32,040 nt of DNA from IMG/VR virus record IMGVR_UViG_3300027734_000212, positions 1-32,040 of that record. The stretch is one strand, 5' to 3'. The position numbers were made by a program, and so were the translations under genes. Within the stretch, counting starts at the first letter, position 1. Every line of letters begins with the position of its first letter. Source of the stretch: a virus. Shown here piece by piece: positions 3,899-7,430 of the stretch. The notes under the pieces are model-generated. The model was not told the origin of the DNA and did no database searches. It saw only the letters and a program-made list of their open reading frames with translations.

Positions 3899-4450
3899 AT
3901 GCAAAAATCAGAATCAATCAAAAATCTCACGAAGGCGTTGATAACGTTTCACGTGAAAGTTGACACAATCAAAAAGGATGCAAAGAATCCTTTCTTCAAA
4001 TCATCTTACGCATCACTCACAAACATTCTTGATGGAATCAATGATGCACTAATTGAAAGCGGATTATCTGTTGCTCAATTTCCTGAAGGTGATTATGGAT
4101 TGGAAACAATTCTCATGCACGAATCAGGCGAATGGATTCAGGCTAACTACACAATGAAACCAGTTAAGGATGACCCACAAAGCAGAGGTTCGGCTATTAC
4201 TTACGCAAGACGTTACGCATTGGCATCAATCCTATCACTAAACATTGATGATGATGATGATGGCAATGCTGCAACACATGGAAGTGCAACACCTTACGAG
4301 AATACAGAAAAAGCATGGTTGAATACTGGAACACCTGAGTTTGAAAAAGCAATGACATACATGAAAGGTGGTGGTTCAATTAATGCAATCAAGACAAAGT
4401 ACAAAATCCGTAAAGAGGTTGAACAAATGCTAACAACTCAAAATAAATAA
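3899..4450 (+). CDS. erf: ERF-family single-strand DNA annealing protein
   Basis: 183 residues. The ERF signature is clear: KKDAKNPFFKSSYASLTNIL (25-44) near the start and GSAITYARRYALASILSL (97-114) in the middle, followed by an acidic run of five Asp (117-121). The C-terminal third is variable and probably binds partners. ERF proteins form rings on single-stranded DNA and anneal complementary strands in phage recombination and genome circularisation. It stands at the head of a recombination/replication block (4453 and 4923 follow within a few bases). A parS-like palindrome lies inside its first codons (3945-3960). Confidence 0.9.
   Translation: MQKSESIKNLTKALITFHVKVDTIKKDAKNPFFKSSYASLTNILDGINDALIESGLSVAQFPEGDYGLETILMHESGEWIQANYTMKPVKDDPQSRGSAITYARRYALASILSLNIDDDDDGNAATHGSATPYENTEKAWLNTGTPEFEKAMTYMKGGGSINAIKTKYKIRKEVEQMLTTQNK
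3945..3960. promoter_or_regulatory. parS-like palindrome inside the ERF gene
   Basis: CGTTTCACGTGAAAGT contains the perfect 12-bp palindrome TTTCACGTGAAA. It agrees with the bacterial parS consensus TGTTTCACGTGAAACA at 13 of 16 positions, 13 of them contiguous. It uses CAC and GTG codons, which are not the favoured choices in so AT-rich a genome. ParB binding is inference. Confidence 0.35.
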
Positions 4451-4452
4451 CT

Positions 4453-4926
4453 ATGAATTACCTGCCATCTATTACTACTGAACTAACAAAATCACAAATC
4501 CAGATAGTCGCTGAAGGCTATCTGGATGAAGTGAGCAAGAACGGAAAAATCATTGAACTAACCGATTTGATTGCTAAGATGGAATATCTTATAAAGCAAA
4601 TCAGAGAGAATAAAGGTTATGTTGATGAGGTCAGAACTGAATTAATGAAGTTCGGCAGAGAATATGTAACACCATCAGGAACAAAGATTGAACTTGCAGA
4701 GGTCGGAACAAAGTATGATTTCACGCATTGTGGAAGTACTGAACTTCAGGAACTTGAAGAACTACAAGATAAGACAGAAGCAAGAATAAAATCGGTTAAA
4801 GATTTCCTGAAGACATTACCTGACGAAGGCATGATGGTTCTGAATCAATCAACTGGTGAATTAGAAATGGTTTTTCCACCTGCAAAAACAAGCACATCAT
4901 CATTTAAAACAACACTTAAAAAATGA
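4453..4926 (+). CDS. Coiled-coil protein of the recombination/replication block, unknown function
   Basis: 157 residues. Mostly helical: residues 35-75 and 95-120 carry heptad-like patterns (LIAKMEYLIKQIRENKG, LQELEELQDKTEARIKSVKDF). The middle part GTKIELAEVGTKYDFTHCG and the end VFPPAKTSTSSFKTTLKK read like a conserved family, and similar proteins are found next to recombinases in Bacteroidota phages, but no activity is known to me. It follows the ERF gene by 2 bases and overlaps the DnaA-like gene by ATGA. It may be a partner of the annealing protein. Confidence 0.75.
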   Translation: MNYLPSITTELTKSQIQIVAEGYLDEVSKNGKIIELTDLIAKMEYLIKQIRENKGYVDEVRTELMKFGREYVTPSGTKIELAEVGTKYDFTHCGSTELQELEELQDKTEARIKSVKDFLKTLPDEGMMVLNQSTGELEMVFPPAKTSTSSFKTTLKK

Positions 4927-5342
4927 ACTGCGAACCATGTATAAATGAATTTATACCACAAACAAAACGATTGACAAAAGATGAAATACTGGAAGCAATC
5001 TGCATGAAATATGGAATAGAAATCAGGCAAATGAAAGGTAAACGCAGAGATTATAATATTGTTGAAGCAAGACATTTACTTTGCTATGTTCTAAATTCAG
5101 ATAGTTATTTAAGGATGTACCTGCGCGAAATTGGAGAATTAATCAACCGACACCATTCAACAATTATTCATTCTATTGAGTATGTAAAAAGAACACTGGA
5201 GGTTGATGCTGGATATCGCAGAAAGGTTGCAGATTTATATATGCATCTCTATAACACAACAGAATATCTTCCAAGTTTCGTTCTTAATTTTGTGGAAAAA
5301 CAAAACAAAATAAAATCAATCTCTATTCAATTTATTGATTAA
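4923..5342 (+). CDS. Stand-alone DnaA domain IV-like protein
   Basis: 139 residues. Residues about 20-100 match the C-terminal DNA-binding domain of DnaA. VEARHLLCYVLNS corresponds to the helix with the conserved Arg, and REIGELINRHHSTIIHSIEYV (68-88) corresponds to the DnaA signature around RDHSTV. The ATPase domain and domain I are absent, so it cannot act as a full initiator. It could mark a phage origin, compete with host DnaA for DnaA boxes, or act as a repressor. It overlaps the preceding gene by 4 bases and ends right at a promoter element (5340-5347), so it terminates the first early segment. The domain assignment is firm; the role is inference. Confidence 0.8.
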   Translation: MNCEPCINEFIPQTKRLTKDEILEAICMKYGIEIRQMKGKRRDYNIVEARHLLCYVLNSDSYLRMYLREIGELINRHHSTIIHSIEYVKRTLEVDAGYRRKVADLYMHLYNTTEYLPSFVLNFVEKQNKIKSISIQFID

Positions 5343-5347
5343 ATTTG
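5340..5347 (+). promoter_or_regulatory. Promoter -7 element for the structured leader RNA
   Basis: TAAATTTG fits TAnnTTTG exactly and overlaps the stop of the DnaA-like gene. No clear -33 TTG is visible at 17-21 bases upstream. Transcription would start near 5354, just before the first hairpin. Confidence 0.5.
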
Positions 5348-5353
5348 TATAGC

Positions 5354-5440
5354 GAACTCTGAATATATTGCAGCTATTCAGAGATTCAATCCTCAACCTT
5401 TAAAAGGTCATAATGCTGCAATCATTGTGACCTTTTTTAT
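5354..5440 (+). ncRNA. Two-hairpin structured RNA with complementary (kissing) loops; leader/attenuator or small RNA
   Basis: Hairpin 1 pairs CTCTGAATA (5357-5365) with TATTCAGAG (5375-5383), a perfect 9-bp stem with loop TATTGCAGC. Hairpin 2 is the terminator at 5402-5436 with loop CTGCAAT (5416-5422). ATTGCAG in loop 1 (5367-5373) is the exact reverse complement of all seven bases of loop 2, so the loops can kiss. The unit has its own promoter element upstream and a T run downstream. It is therefore either an RNA of about 85-90 nt or the regulated leader of the gene at 5444, whose ATG follows the T run directly. No known family recognised. Confidence 0.6.
5402..5440 (+). terminator. Strong intrinsic terminator immediately before the gene at 5444
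   Basis: AAAAGGTCATAATG (5402-5415) pairs with CATTGTGACCTTTT (5423-5436) with one mismatch, loop CTGCAAT, then a T-rich tail. The next start codon is only a few bases after the tail, so the gene downstream needs read-through or a separate start of transcription. Confidence 0.85.
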
Positions 5441-5443
5441 TTT

Positions 5444-5674
5444 ATGCCAGTAAGAAAATATTATGAATGTACAGAAAGTTTCAATTCAATTGAATTTGAC
5501 ACTATTGAAACAATTGATAAACAAACATTTTTGTTTATTAAAACAAAACATGAAGATGGTCAATATATTGAAGTGAATTTGACAAGAATGGATTTGCTAA
5601 ATCTTATACAAGAATTAGAAAATATTAATGAAATTATTTATGATAAAGAAAAAGAAGGAGGTAACAATGCCTAA
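5444..5674 (+). CDS. Small acidic protein downstream of the attenuator-like leader
   Basis: 76 residues, not recognised. It looks like a small alpha/beta protein: strands FNSIEFDTIETIDKQTFLFI and YIEVNLTRMDLLNLI, then an acidic helical tail (QELENINEIIYDKEKEGG). Its ATG at 5444 follows directly on the T run of the terminator, with no room for a ribosome site outside the hairpin, so its expression is probably tied to that RNA structure. Its last codons contain the Shine-Dalgarno of the next gene, which it overlaps by 8 bases. Confidence 0.65.
   Translation: MPVRKYYECTESFNSIEFDTIETIDKQTFLFIKTKHEDGQYIEVNLTRMDLLNLIQELENINEIIYDKEKEGGNNA
5655..5662 (+). promoter_or_regulatory. Perfect Shine-Dalgarno for the replisome organiser
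   Basis: AAGGAGGT lies 4 bases before the ATG at 5667. It decides this start over the upstream in-frame TTG at 5628. I found no comparable site before the other genes of this window, where leaders are A-rich as usual in Bacteroidota. Confidence 0.75.
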
Positions 5675-6437
5675 AAGATTCACAGATACTGAAAAATGGA
5701 AAGACGATTGGTATCTTTCTTTGAATAATGATTACAGAATCATTTGGCAATGGTTGTTAGATAATTGCAATCATGCAGGAATTTGTAAGCCATCAATAAA
5801 TTTACTTAACATGATGTGTAACACATCAATAAGTGAATCAGATTTAATTTCAATTATGAATGGCAGAATATTGAAAATTAGCAACATTTGGTTTATTCCA
5901 AAATTTTTAAAATTTCAATATGGAACTTTAAATTCAAAAAAACCTGCGGTTGTTTCAGTAGTTAATGAATTGAAAAAAAATGATTTATTTCATTTAGTTA
6001 AAGAACTATTAGATAATGATTGTATAATGATTACAGAACCATTAGAGAATAGTTCCGTAACTATTAAAGATAAAGATAAAGATAAGGATAAGGATAAAGA
6101 TATAATTATTAATAAAAATGGTTTTTTCAAAGAATTAGATTTTGACGAACTACCTGAACAATACCAACGCAGTATTATTGAGCAAATGAAAATTCAAAAG
6201 CAAAAGGATATTGAATTAAATGTAGTACTTTCAATGTGGCAAATATTTAAAACACAAAATCTAACTGGTGACAAATTTTACAACAATCGTAACGAAGTAT
6301 ACAGACACTTTACAAACTGGATTAAAACACAAAAATTTGAACACAATGCAAAACCTGCCAATGAAAAGAGATTCGACGCATACCTTGAATTCGCTAACCG
6401 ATATAAAAAACCATCTAATGACGAAGCGGTTAATTGA
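5667..6437 (+). CDS. Putative replisome organiser / replication initiator
   Basis: 256 residues from the ATG at 5667. The N-terminal part (KRFTDTEKWKDDWYLSLNND, then RIIWQWLLDNCNHAGI) is of the type found in phage replication-initiation (replisome organiser) proteins, probably a winged helix. A KD repeat at about residues 134-145 forms a charged linker. The C-terminal half is helical, with FTNWIKTQKF near the end like phage replication proteins of the DnaD/O kind. These proteins bind the origin and bring in the helicase loader. No polymerase or helicase gene is present, so host enzymes must be recruited. It overlaps the next gene by 20 bases. The class is likely; the exact family is not certain. 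Confidence 0.6.
   Translation: MPKRFTDTEKWKDDWYLSLNNDYRIIWQWLLDNCNHAGICKPSINLLNMMCNTSISESDLISIMNGRILKISNIWFIPKFLKFQYGTLNSKKPAVVSVVNELKKNDLFHLVKELLDNDCIMITEPLENSSVTIKDKDKDKDKDKDIIINKNGFFKELDFDELPEQYQRSIIEQMKIQKQKDIELNVVLSMWQIFKTQNLTGDKFYNNRNEVYRHFTNWIKTQKFEHNAKPANEKRFDAYLEFANRYKKPSNDEAVN
6066..6101 (+). repeat. Hexanucleotide tandem repeat AAAGAT/AAGGAT (6 units)
   Basis: Three AAAGAT units, two AAGGAT and one AAAGAT follow one another in frame and encode (Lys-Asp)6, the linker of the replication protein. Changes in copy number would keep the frame and only alter linker length. Confidence 0.9.
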
Positions 6438-7101
6438 TTGTGAACCTAATGAAATCAATCAGCAACTTGCAAAGATTTATTTAATCATTGGATTGCGTCC
6501 ACAACACTTTCCTTCTGATTATGAGAATCAATTTTTGATTGACTATATAAAAACAAATCATGGTCAAAAAGGAATAGGAGAATTGTACTTTGCGTTTCAG
6601 TTAGCGGTTCAGGATAAGTTAGATATTGAATCTGCGAATCCTTATGACCAGTTTAGCGTGATATATTTTGAACGCATAATGATTTCATACCGCGCATGGC
6701 TGAATAAAAAATACATCGAAGAATCACAAGTTAGAATTGAACCAAAACAAATTGAATACAAAATGACAAATGAAGAAAAATGGCAGGAAATAAACGAATG
6801 GAAAGAGAAATCAGAAATTGATATTCGTATGATACCAATTTACCTTTATGAATGGTTAGAGGAATTTGGAGAGATAATGCTTGATAAAAATGAAAAGGTT
6901 AAGATTTATGAACAAGCATCACAGATGTACCTTTCAATCATGCGAAATGAGGCAGAGCAACAAAATAAATGGCAAGAATACAATCGTTACATCAACCAAC
7001 ATTCGTTAGGATTCAAACAAATTAAAGGCGAGTATGTACCTATACTTAGAAATCTATCAATGAGAATCGCAGTTTTTAAATATTTAAAAAACACAAAATG
7101 A
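6418..7101 (+). CDS. Replication-associated protein, possibly helicase-loader-like
   Basis: 227 residues from the ATG at 6418 (MTKRLIDCEPNEINQQLAKI). A longer reading from 6268 would lie inside the preceding gene and is rejected. Residues 1-100 read as a compact helical domain (YLIIGLRPQHFPSDYENQ; GIGELYFAFQLAVQDKLD; FERIMISYRAWLNKK) similar in look to proteins encoded after replisome organisers in Bacteroidota phages. The second half is helical and charged. No Walker A motif is present, so it is not a DnaC-type ATPase. A loader or adaptor role is inferred from position only. It overlaps the preceding gene by 20 bases and the next by 4. Confidence 0.55.
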   Translation: MTKRLIDCEPNEINQQLAKIYLIIGLRPQHFPSDYENQFLIDYIKTNHGQKGIGELYFAFQLAVQDKLDIESANPYDQFSVIYFERIMISYRAWLNKKYIEESQVRIEPKQIEYKMTNEEKWQEINEWKEKSEIDIRMIPIYLYEWLEEFGEIMLDKNEKVKIYEQASQMYLSIMRNEAEQQNKWQEYNRYINQHSLGFKQIKGEYVPILRNLSMRIAVFKYLKNTK

Positions 7102-7295
7102 AACAGACATCAATAGAATGGTTAATAGATGCTTTAGAAAATCCTAAATTAAAATGGGATGATATAAAAATACAAGCTAAAGAAATGCACAAGCAAGAGA
7201 TAATAGATGCGGTGTCTTATGGCAATAAAAATGAATTAATGGCATCACAAGAAATGTTTGCAGAACAATACTATCAAGAAACATTTAAAAATTAA
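7098..7295 (+). CDS. Small conserved-looking phage protein, unknown function
   Basis: 65 residues: KQTSIEWLIDALENP at the start, a helix IKIQAKEMHKQEIIDAVSYGN, and an end EQYYQETFKN. This pattern (TSxEWL...QAKEM...QIIDA...YYxETF) recurs in phages of Flavobacterium and relatives, where it has no known role. It begins in an ATGA overlap with the preceding gene and ends 3 bases before a small membrane protein. Confidence 0.75.
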   Translation: MKQTSIEWLIDALENPKLKWDDIKIQAKEMHKQEIIDAVSYGNKNELMASQEMFAEQYYQETFKN

Positions 7296-7298
7296 AAA

Positions 7299-7430
7299 AT
7301 GATTTTACAAATAATTTACTGGATGGTTTTAATCACTTTGGTATTGATAGGAATGCTATCATTTGCAATGATTTGGTTTTTTGCATTTGATTTCATTTAT
7401 CATTTCATAAAAGAAAAATTCACAAAATGA
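7299..7430 (+). CDS. 43-residue membrane protein
   Basis: ATG at 7299 opens 43 codons. Nearly the whole protein is hydrophobic (IIYWMVLITLVLIGMLSFAM then IWFFAFDFIYHFI) with a short basic tail KEKFTK, so one long or two short membrane segments. It fills the gap between its neighbours exactly: 3 bases after the preceding stop and an ATGA overlap with the nuclease start at 7427. That tight fit supports it. Function unknown. Confidence 0.65.
   Translation: MILQIIYWMVLITLVLIGMLSFAMIWFFAFDFIYHFIKEKFTK

Follow-up and report, generated by a model that had tools for sequence, protein, structure and literature searches.

Covarying complementary hairpin loops in a family of predicted leader RNAs found mainly before replication initiator, homing-type nuclease and DNA modification genes of uncultured phages

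The window (the whole 32,040-nt stretch of viral DNA that was analysed) contains a compact leader located between a gene for a stand-alone DnaA domain IV protein and two ORFs, all on the plus strand. The features, from 5' to 3', are as follows.

4923..5342, plus strand: upstream gene, outside the element, for a stand-alone DnaA domain IV protein (Pfam Bac_DnaA_C, E=1.5e-15)
5340..5347, plus strand: -7 promoter element TAAATTTG of the Bacteroidota type TAHHTTTG (sequence; consensus from PMC6847099)
5352..5352, plus strand: predicted +1 (G5347 set at -5, rule from PMC6847099)
5354..5387, plus strand: hairpin 1, a 9-bp stem (5357-5365/5375-5383) plus 3 bp across a bulge (RNAfold)
5367..5373, plus strand: loop-1 heptamer ATTGCAG, exact reverse complement of 5416-5422 (loop-loop covariation)
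5388..5401, plus strand: single-stranded linker, 14 nt
5402..5436, plus strand: hairpin 2, terminator-like, 14 bp (stem 5402-5415/5423-5436; RNAfold and terminator scan)
5416..5422, plus strand: loop-2 heptamer CTGCAAT, exact reverse complement of 5367-5373 (loop-loop covariation)
5433..5443, plus strand: U tract TTTTTTATTTT (T6-A-T4), abutting the start codon (sequence and terminator scan)
5444..5674, plus strand: 76-aa ORF, the first behind the element (ORF call)
5628..6437, plus strand: 269-aa ORF, probable replication initiator/replisome organiser

The sequence features named in the original prediction were all found in place. These were the promoter element at 5340 (5340-5347), which shares bases with the upstream gene's stop codon; a perfect 9-bp hairpin at 5357-5383, to which RNAfold added three pairs across a bulge (5354-5356/5385-5387) and whose loop spans 9 nt (5366-5374); a 14-bp hairpin at 5402-5436 with the loop CTGCAAT, seen in both sequence and RNAfold; exact complementarity of ATTGCAG in loop 1 to loop 2 at 7/7 positions; and a T run ending at 5443 with the ATG directly behind it at 5444. 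The 90-nt RNA gave a folding z of -5.5, and 0 of 200 shuffles folded equally well. A simple terminator scan of 4400-7400 returned hairpin 2 as its single site, where shuffles gave 0.8; the terminator match alone was not significant and comparative evidence was therefore needed for a case beyond chance. In the window and in the family described below, hairpin 2 runs directly into a U run in the manner of an intrinsic terminator, and it is from this combination that the terminator label is predicted.

Neither the 76-aa ORF nor the 269-aa ORF had a Pfam or PHROG match. A segment of the latter, MPKRFTDTEKWK (from ~5668), resembles the start of a protein from another locus (L773), MAKRFTDTEKWK, which stands directly behind that locus' own element, and the 269-aa ORF is a probable replication initiator or replisome organiser. 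At locus L177 a similar-looking gene was observed at the position equivalent to that of the DnaA domain IV gene. One near-identical relative (L002) carries the same leader, and both leader and upstream gene are nearly identical to those of the window (3418-3526 in L002, 5340-5446 in the window). Behind the leader the two phages carry entirely different first genes, indicating gene exchange right at the start codon.

Scanning for the two loops, with the promoter added in a second round, returned at least about a dozen unrelated leaders in which promoter, ATTGCAG hairpin, CTGCAAT hairpin, U tract and ATG followed in the order seen in the window, on stems that differed. The first pattern scan was palindromic and led to the family nonetheless. 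Since loop-based scans fix the loop sequence and so cannot test loop pairing, a protein-based search was used, in which leaders were chosen solely by the protein behind them (protein alignment A1, two Lin1244-type initiators). The element was present in 77 of 78 loci with upstream sequence, and all 44 distinct leaders selected in this way possessed both hairpins and exact 7/7 loop complementarity with varying loop sequences. Eight loop pairs occurred among these 44 leaders: ATTGCAG/CTGCAAT, GTTGCAG/CTGCAAC, GTACGAG/CTCGTAC, GTAGGAT/ATCCTAC, GTCGCAT/ATGCGAC, GTCGGAT/ATCCGAC, GTCGTAT/ATACGAC and the inverted ATGCGAC/GTCGCAT.

When hairpins were picked by stem strength alone, loops were exactly complementary in 37/44 leaders, and in the remaining seven the complementarity lay at the homologous hairpin, the automatic pick having fallen on an adjacent stem. 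Random dealing of the second loops among the 44 gave a mean of 8 complementary leaders and a maximum of 17. Covariation was seen in the stems, with two-sided changes at 14 of the 15 predicted pairs, and in the loops, which scored 0.51 where shuffles scored 0.15 and slid partners never exceeded 0.11, in a MAFFT alignment that had eight rows misaligned by two columns and non-pairs that all fell in groups of eight. A gap-free alignment of 26 distinct hairpin pairs showed Watson-Crick pairs in 182/182 loop cells and two-sided changes at five of the seven loop pairs; this set was selected for complementarity and served solely to illustrate the variation of the pairs. Exact complementarity is demanded by construction in the A3 counts and in the generic scan presented below, and the protein-selected set alone is free of that. 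Loop complementarity was kept by compensatory changes, as is characteristic of kissing loops, and the kissing proposed between the 5' hairpin and the start-codon terminator hairpin, a 7-bp loop-loop pairing, is strongly supported by this loop covariation. Relatives in which the stems were kept and loop complementarity lost, which would have spoken against it, were looked for and not found. The polarity of promoter, hairpin, hairpin, U tract and ATG, together with G-U pairs in the stems, argues for a structure formed in RNA rather than DNA.

To survey the family, a generic finder was used that required a promoter, a hairpin on any heptamer, a hairpin on its reverse complement, a T-rich run and an ORF ATG. 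Across 797 loci (6.25 Mb) it returned 141 distinct elements with 18 loop pairs, in comparison to 0 and 0 elements when the rule 'reverse complement' was replaced by the decoy rules 'reverse' and 'complement'. One rotated decoy at an earlier scan stage gave two matches, both true elements misread. An earlier, looser finder had also produced false matches at L252 and L274, which the energy-based finder dropped, and had misread L129, a true member with loops ATTGCAG/CTGCAAT. On this sequence comparison the element belongs to a widespread RNA family, whose members are all uncultured IMG/VR contigs. DNA and protein searches of INPHARED phages found no relative with the element, and a Porphyromonas phage with a related initiator (L378) had no match in the model search. 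Under strict filters and with no positive control, model R1 found none in 396 genomes from the order to which a Flavobacterium genome belongs and none in 395 genomes of that Flavobacterium genome's phylum. For GTDB genome contigs searched with one loop pair plus promoter, none of the matches listed had convincing hairpins after filtering.

The TAHHTTTG motif stands at the promoter position in 138/141 family elements. This motif is the promoter consensus of Flavobacterium johnsoniae, where its G lies at -5 (PMC6847099). With the G set at -5, 88 of 141 elements have the first nucleotide of loop 1 at +4 to +6, so that stem 1 would begin at about +1, and the median distance from +1 to the ATG is 90 nt. 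No clear upstream consensus for the sigma-ABfr -33 element TTTG was found among 79 elements. Because the promoter type matches, the hosts of these uncultured phages are most likely Bacteroidota.

The linker has a median length of 13 nt in the family and frequently contains AACTTATT; linkers of many members (e.g. L122, L299, L411) often hold AAGAACTTATT despite differing stems and loops. Linker length seemed to go with arm lengths, but this was rejected as an artefact of A/U-rich linkers refolding with the U tract. In some elements the U tract is short or interrupted. In most relatives hairpin 2 consists of a basal stem, an internal loop and an upper stem beneath the loop. An internal loop of the GAGUAG or GAAGAG kind was seen opposite CGAA or CGGA in many of the terminator hairpins, among them those of L132, L411, L698, L714 and L129. 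The internal loop below the kissing loop is a possible site of protein or tertiary contact. The second base of both loops is U and the sixth is A in 13 of 16 pairs, and in one of two newer pairs, and one loop of nearly every pair consequently carries U-N-R at positions 2-4. The YUNR U-turn is typical of the loops of fast antisense RNAs (PMC4485353); the leading Y is usually absent here.

Pfam analysis of 62 distinct downstream proteins identified NUMOD4 (12), HNH_3 (11), Lin1244_N (11), DUF6291 (6), HTH_36 (5) and MUG113/T5orf172 (4), along with Mom, N6_N4_Mtase, SNF2 helicase and others, and the genes behind the element are thus predicted to encode mainly replication initiators, homing-type nucleases and DNA modification enzymes. 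Genome pieces usually carry one element, before a replication gene, and sometimes more, before nuclease genes. A 65-kb viral contig (L146, genome G007) has an HNH gene with its own kissing leader between GroEL-like and GroES-like genes, these names having been assigned by eye from translations. At L572, L575, L577 and L582 a nuclease gene lies directly behind the leader, and further down is a piece matching solely the C-terminal half of the initiator type found at L122. The arrangement at these four loci points to shuffling of N-terminal modules behind the leader.

Variation between close relatives was analysed in 62 pairs that were >85% identical over the 150-nt upstream flank as well as over the gene's first 300 nt. 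Loops differed in 22 of these pairs, where the median leader identity was 64% in comparison to 96% in same-loop pairs. For example, L386 and L362 have flanks that are 99% and 97% identical and a leader of 62% identity, and L324 and L361 have flanks at 97% and 97% with a leader at 66%. The exchanged stretch runs from just past the promoter to the U tract, and the promoter flank and gene of the exchange pairs are 86-99% identical. In the L122 family both loops have changed while the interval between them is nearly constant. Such loop exchange goes beyond slow compensatory drift, and recombination between standing alleles would be its simplest mechanism. One locus (L755) has two HNH genes with near-identical leaders whose loops, GTTGAGG/CCTCAAC and GTTGCAG/CTGCAAC, are compensated on both sides. 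Co-resident elements of one genome had different loops in 5/5 pairs, as did a third element in G007, a difference that was not significant (chance of sharing 0.20). Heptamers matching an element's own loops were not enriched elsewhere in the genomes and no trans target was found.

The RNA family is undescribed in the databases and literature searched. Neither the window nor the members matched Rfam 15 at the gathering threshold, the best sub-threshold matches of the window being implausible, and a full-text literature search on kissing loops in phage leaders, with subscription papers outside its scope, found nothing alike. With HK022 put RNA a phage transcript begins with two hairpins about 1 nucleotide apart, and the RNA renders RNA polymerase resistant to distal terminators. 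The family is similar in having two hairpins at the predicted 5' end of a phage transcript, but the hairpins are separated by 14 nt in the window and a median of 13 nt in the family, hairpin 2 is terminator-like and placed on the start codon, and the loops covary; put membership was rejected on the spacing, and the likeness holds in outline only, as the original prediction had put it. ColE1 RNAI/RNAII have 7-nt loops that pair along their whole length and vary between alleles, as in this family, whereas here the pair is intramolecular and a separate antisense transcript was not found. The c4 antisense RNA (RF01695) is alike as a small phage RNA, and the family has no Rfam match.

Closest in logic are the pT181-type systems, antisense RNA transcription attenuators of replication initiator genes that similarly combine a leader before a replication gene, kissing hairpins and an upstream terminator (PMC3753616). 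The putative terminator lies directly upstream of an initiator for Lin1244_N, HTH_36 and DUF6291 members, although not in the nuclease cases. Unlike pT181, the complementary loop is in the same molecule and the family also precedes nucleases and DNA methylases. A convergent antisense RNA of the pT181 type was rejected, with TAHHTTTG, the sole promoter type looked for, absent from the antisense strand of the window at 5443-5800 and present on that strand in 7/141 elements in comparison to 14/140 control stretches. In T4 and Aeh1 homing endonuclease mRNAs (I-TevI, mobE) a hairpin at the translation start restrains expression (PMC3014915), and in the family, too, an RNA hairpin is found where translation of phage homing endonuclease genes begins. 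In T4 and Aeh1 it is the ribosome binding site that the hairpins sequester, whereas in the family the start codon is free and a U tract follows, and there is a second, kissing hairpin and a promoter of its own.

We consider it likely, with a probability of roughly 0.6, that the leader cassette works as a transcription attenuator with kissing loops and gates the gene that follows. The promoter would start an RNA of ~90 nt whose first nucleotides fold into a short hairpin, and past the linker the terminator-like hairpin 2 would form with a 7-nt loop able to pair fully with loop 1. Hairpin 2 and the U tract would end most transcripts before the gene, the gene would be expressed through read-through, and kissing with hairpin 1 would set the read-through frequency, with more or less termination both possible. 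As hairpin 2 abuts the start codon it would probably also hinder translation of the read-through RNA. Such a gate would suit the downstream genes: their products work on DNA, and making them at the wrong time could carry a cost. An RNA switch for these genes would fit the constant order of promoter, hairpin, terminator and ATG. No alternative (antiterminator) base pairing was found within the element, so that a switch would need tertiary structure or a protein. By our own estimate from A-form geometry, the ~13-nt linker would barely span a straight stack of stem 1, the 7 bp and stem 2, and kissing in cis may therefore be strained when hairpin 2 is fully closed. Kissing may in turn strain the base of hairpin 2 and so act against termination, the opposite sign being equally possible. 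Less firmly, since the RNA allele is swapped between otherwise near-identical phages, the loops may in addition allow the RNA of one copy to act on another copy of that allele, as happens in copy-number or immunity systems.

The constant adjacency to the ATG favours a gate over a source of short RNA. In a rival view the terminated ~90-nt RNA acts in trans, kissing same-allele leaders of co-infecting or sister genomes and silencing the initiator or nuclease gene there, much as plasmid incompatibility or antisense immunity works. This would agree with the exchange of loop alleles between phages that are 86-99% identical in promoter flank and gene, with the different loops of co-resident elements in every case, and with the U-N-R part of YUNR (PMC4485353) in nearly every pair. 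Both loops are, however, in one molecule where cis pairing comes first, the within-genome difference is not significant, YUNR mostly lacks its Y, the genomes show no enrichment of own-loop heptamers at other sites, and the exchange could be ordinary recombination. The case for trans action comes down to the allele exchange, and we regard this reading as unlikely. Also doubtful is a self/non-self RNA system, in which a private loop pair would control its own gene in cis and repress same-allele copies in trans.

An RNA like put, in which the two hairpins bind RNA polymerase so that downstream terminators are ignored, would share their predicted position at the extreme 5' end of a phage transcript; with hairpins ~13 nt apart rather than adjacent, a hairpin 2 that ends in a U tract and sequence unconserved beyond structure, it is very improbable. 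Chance, that is two unrelated hairpins with accidental loop complementarity, one being the terminator of the upstream operon, would agree with a terminator scan that alone was not above chance, but loop covariation and 141 copies against 0 decoys leave it with practically no probability, the comparative data having already refuted it. Rather improbable, though less so than either, is that the kissing hairpins stabilise the mRNA 5' end or delay translation, the U tract being an A/U-rich region before a start codon without Shine-Dalgarno. Hairpin 1 beginning at about +1 and hairpin 2 ending ~8-12 nt before the ATG are consistent with this, as are the tuning of initiation by start-codon-proximal structure in Flavobacterium (PMC6847099) and the inhibitory hairpins of T4 and Aeh1 homing endonuclease mRNAs (PMC3014915). 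The U run begins at the hairpin base in the fashion of an intrinsic terminator, however, the start codon itself is unsequestered, and T runs of at least 5 within 25 nt of the ATG occur in 40/58 elements in comparison to 22/309 other ORFs, the 58-element set being partly selected for T richness.

In summary, this analysis brings to light a structured RNA family whose paired loops clearly covary. It counts 141 or more distinct members with 18 loop pairs, and occurs in phages of which hardly any regulation has been worked out. If the self/non-self reading were true, loop alleles would be swapped between near-identical phages under selection for rarity, and the family would be a one-molecule phage counterpart of plasmid incompatibility in the form of a portable cassette carried by homing nucleases. 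The exchange of leader alleles makes the idea of RNA loops as identity tags between phages directly testable. For the attenuator reading, the constant architecture offers a compact natural model for the influence of kissing on intrinsic termination, and one likely RNA switch would link replication initiators, homing nucleases and DNA modification genes.
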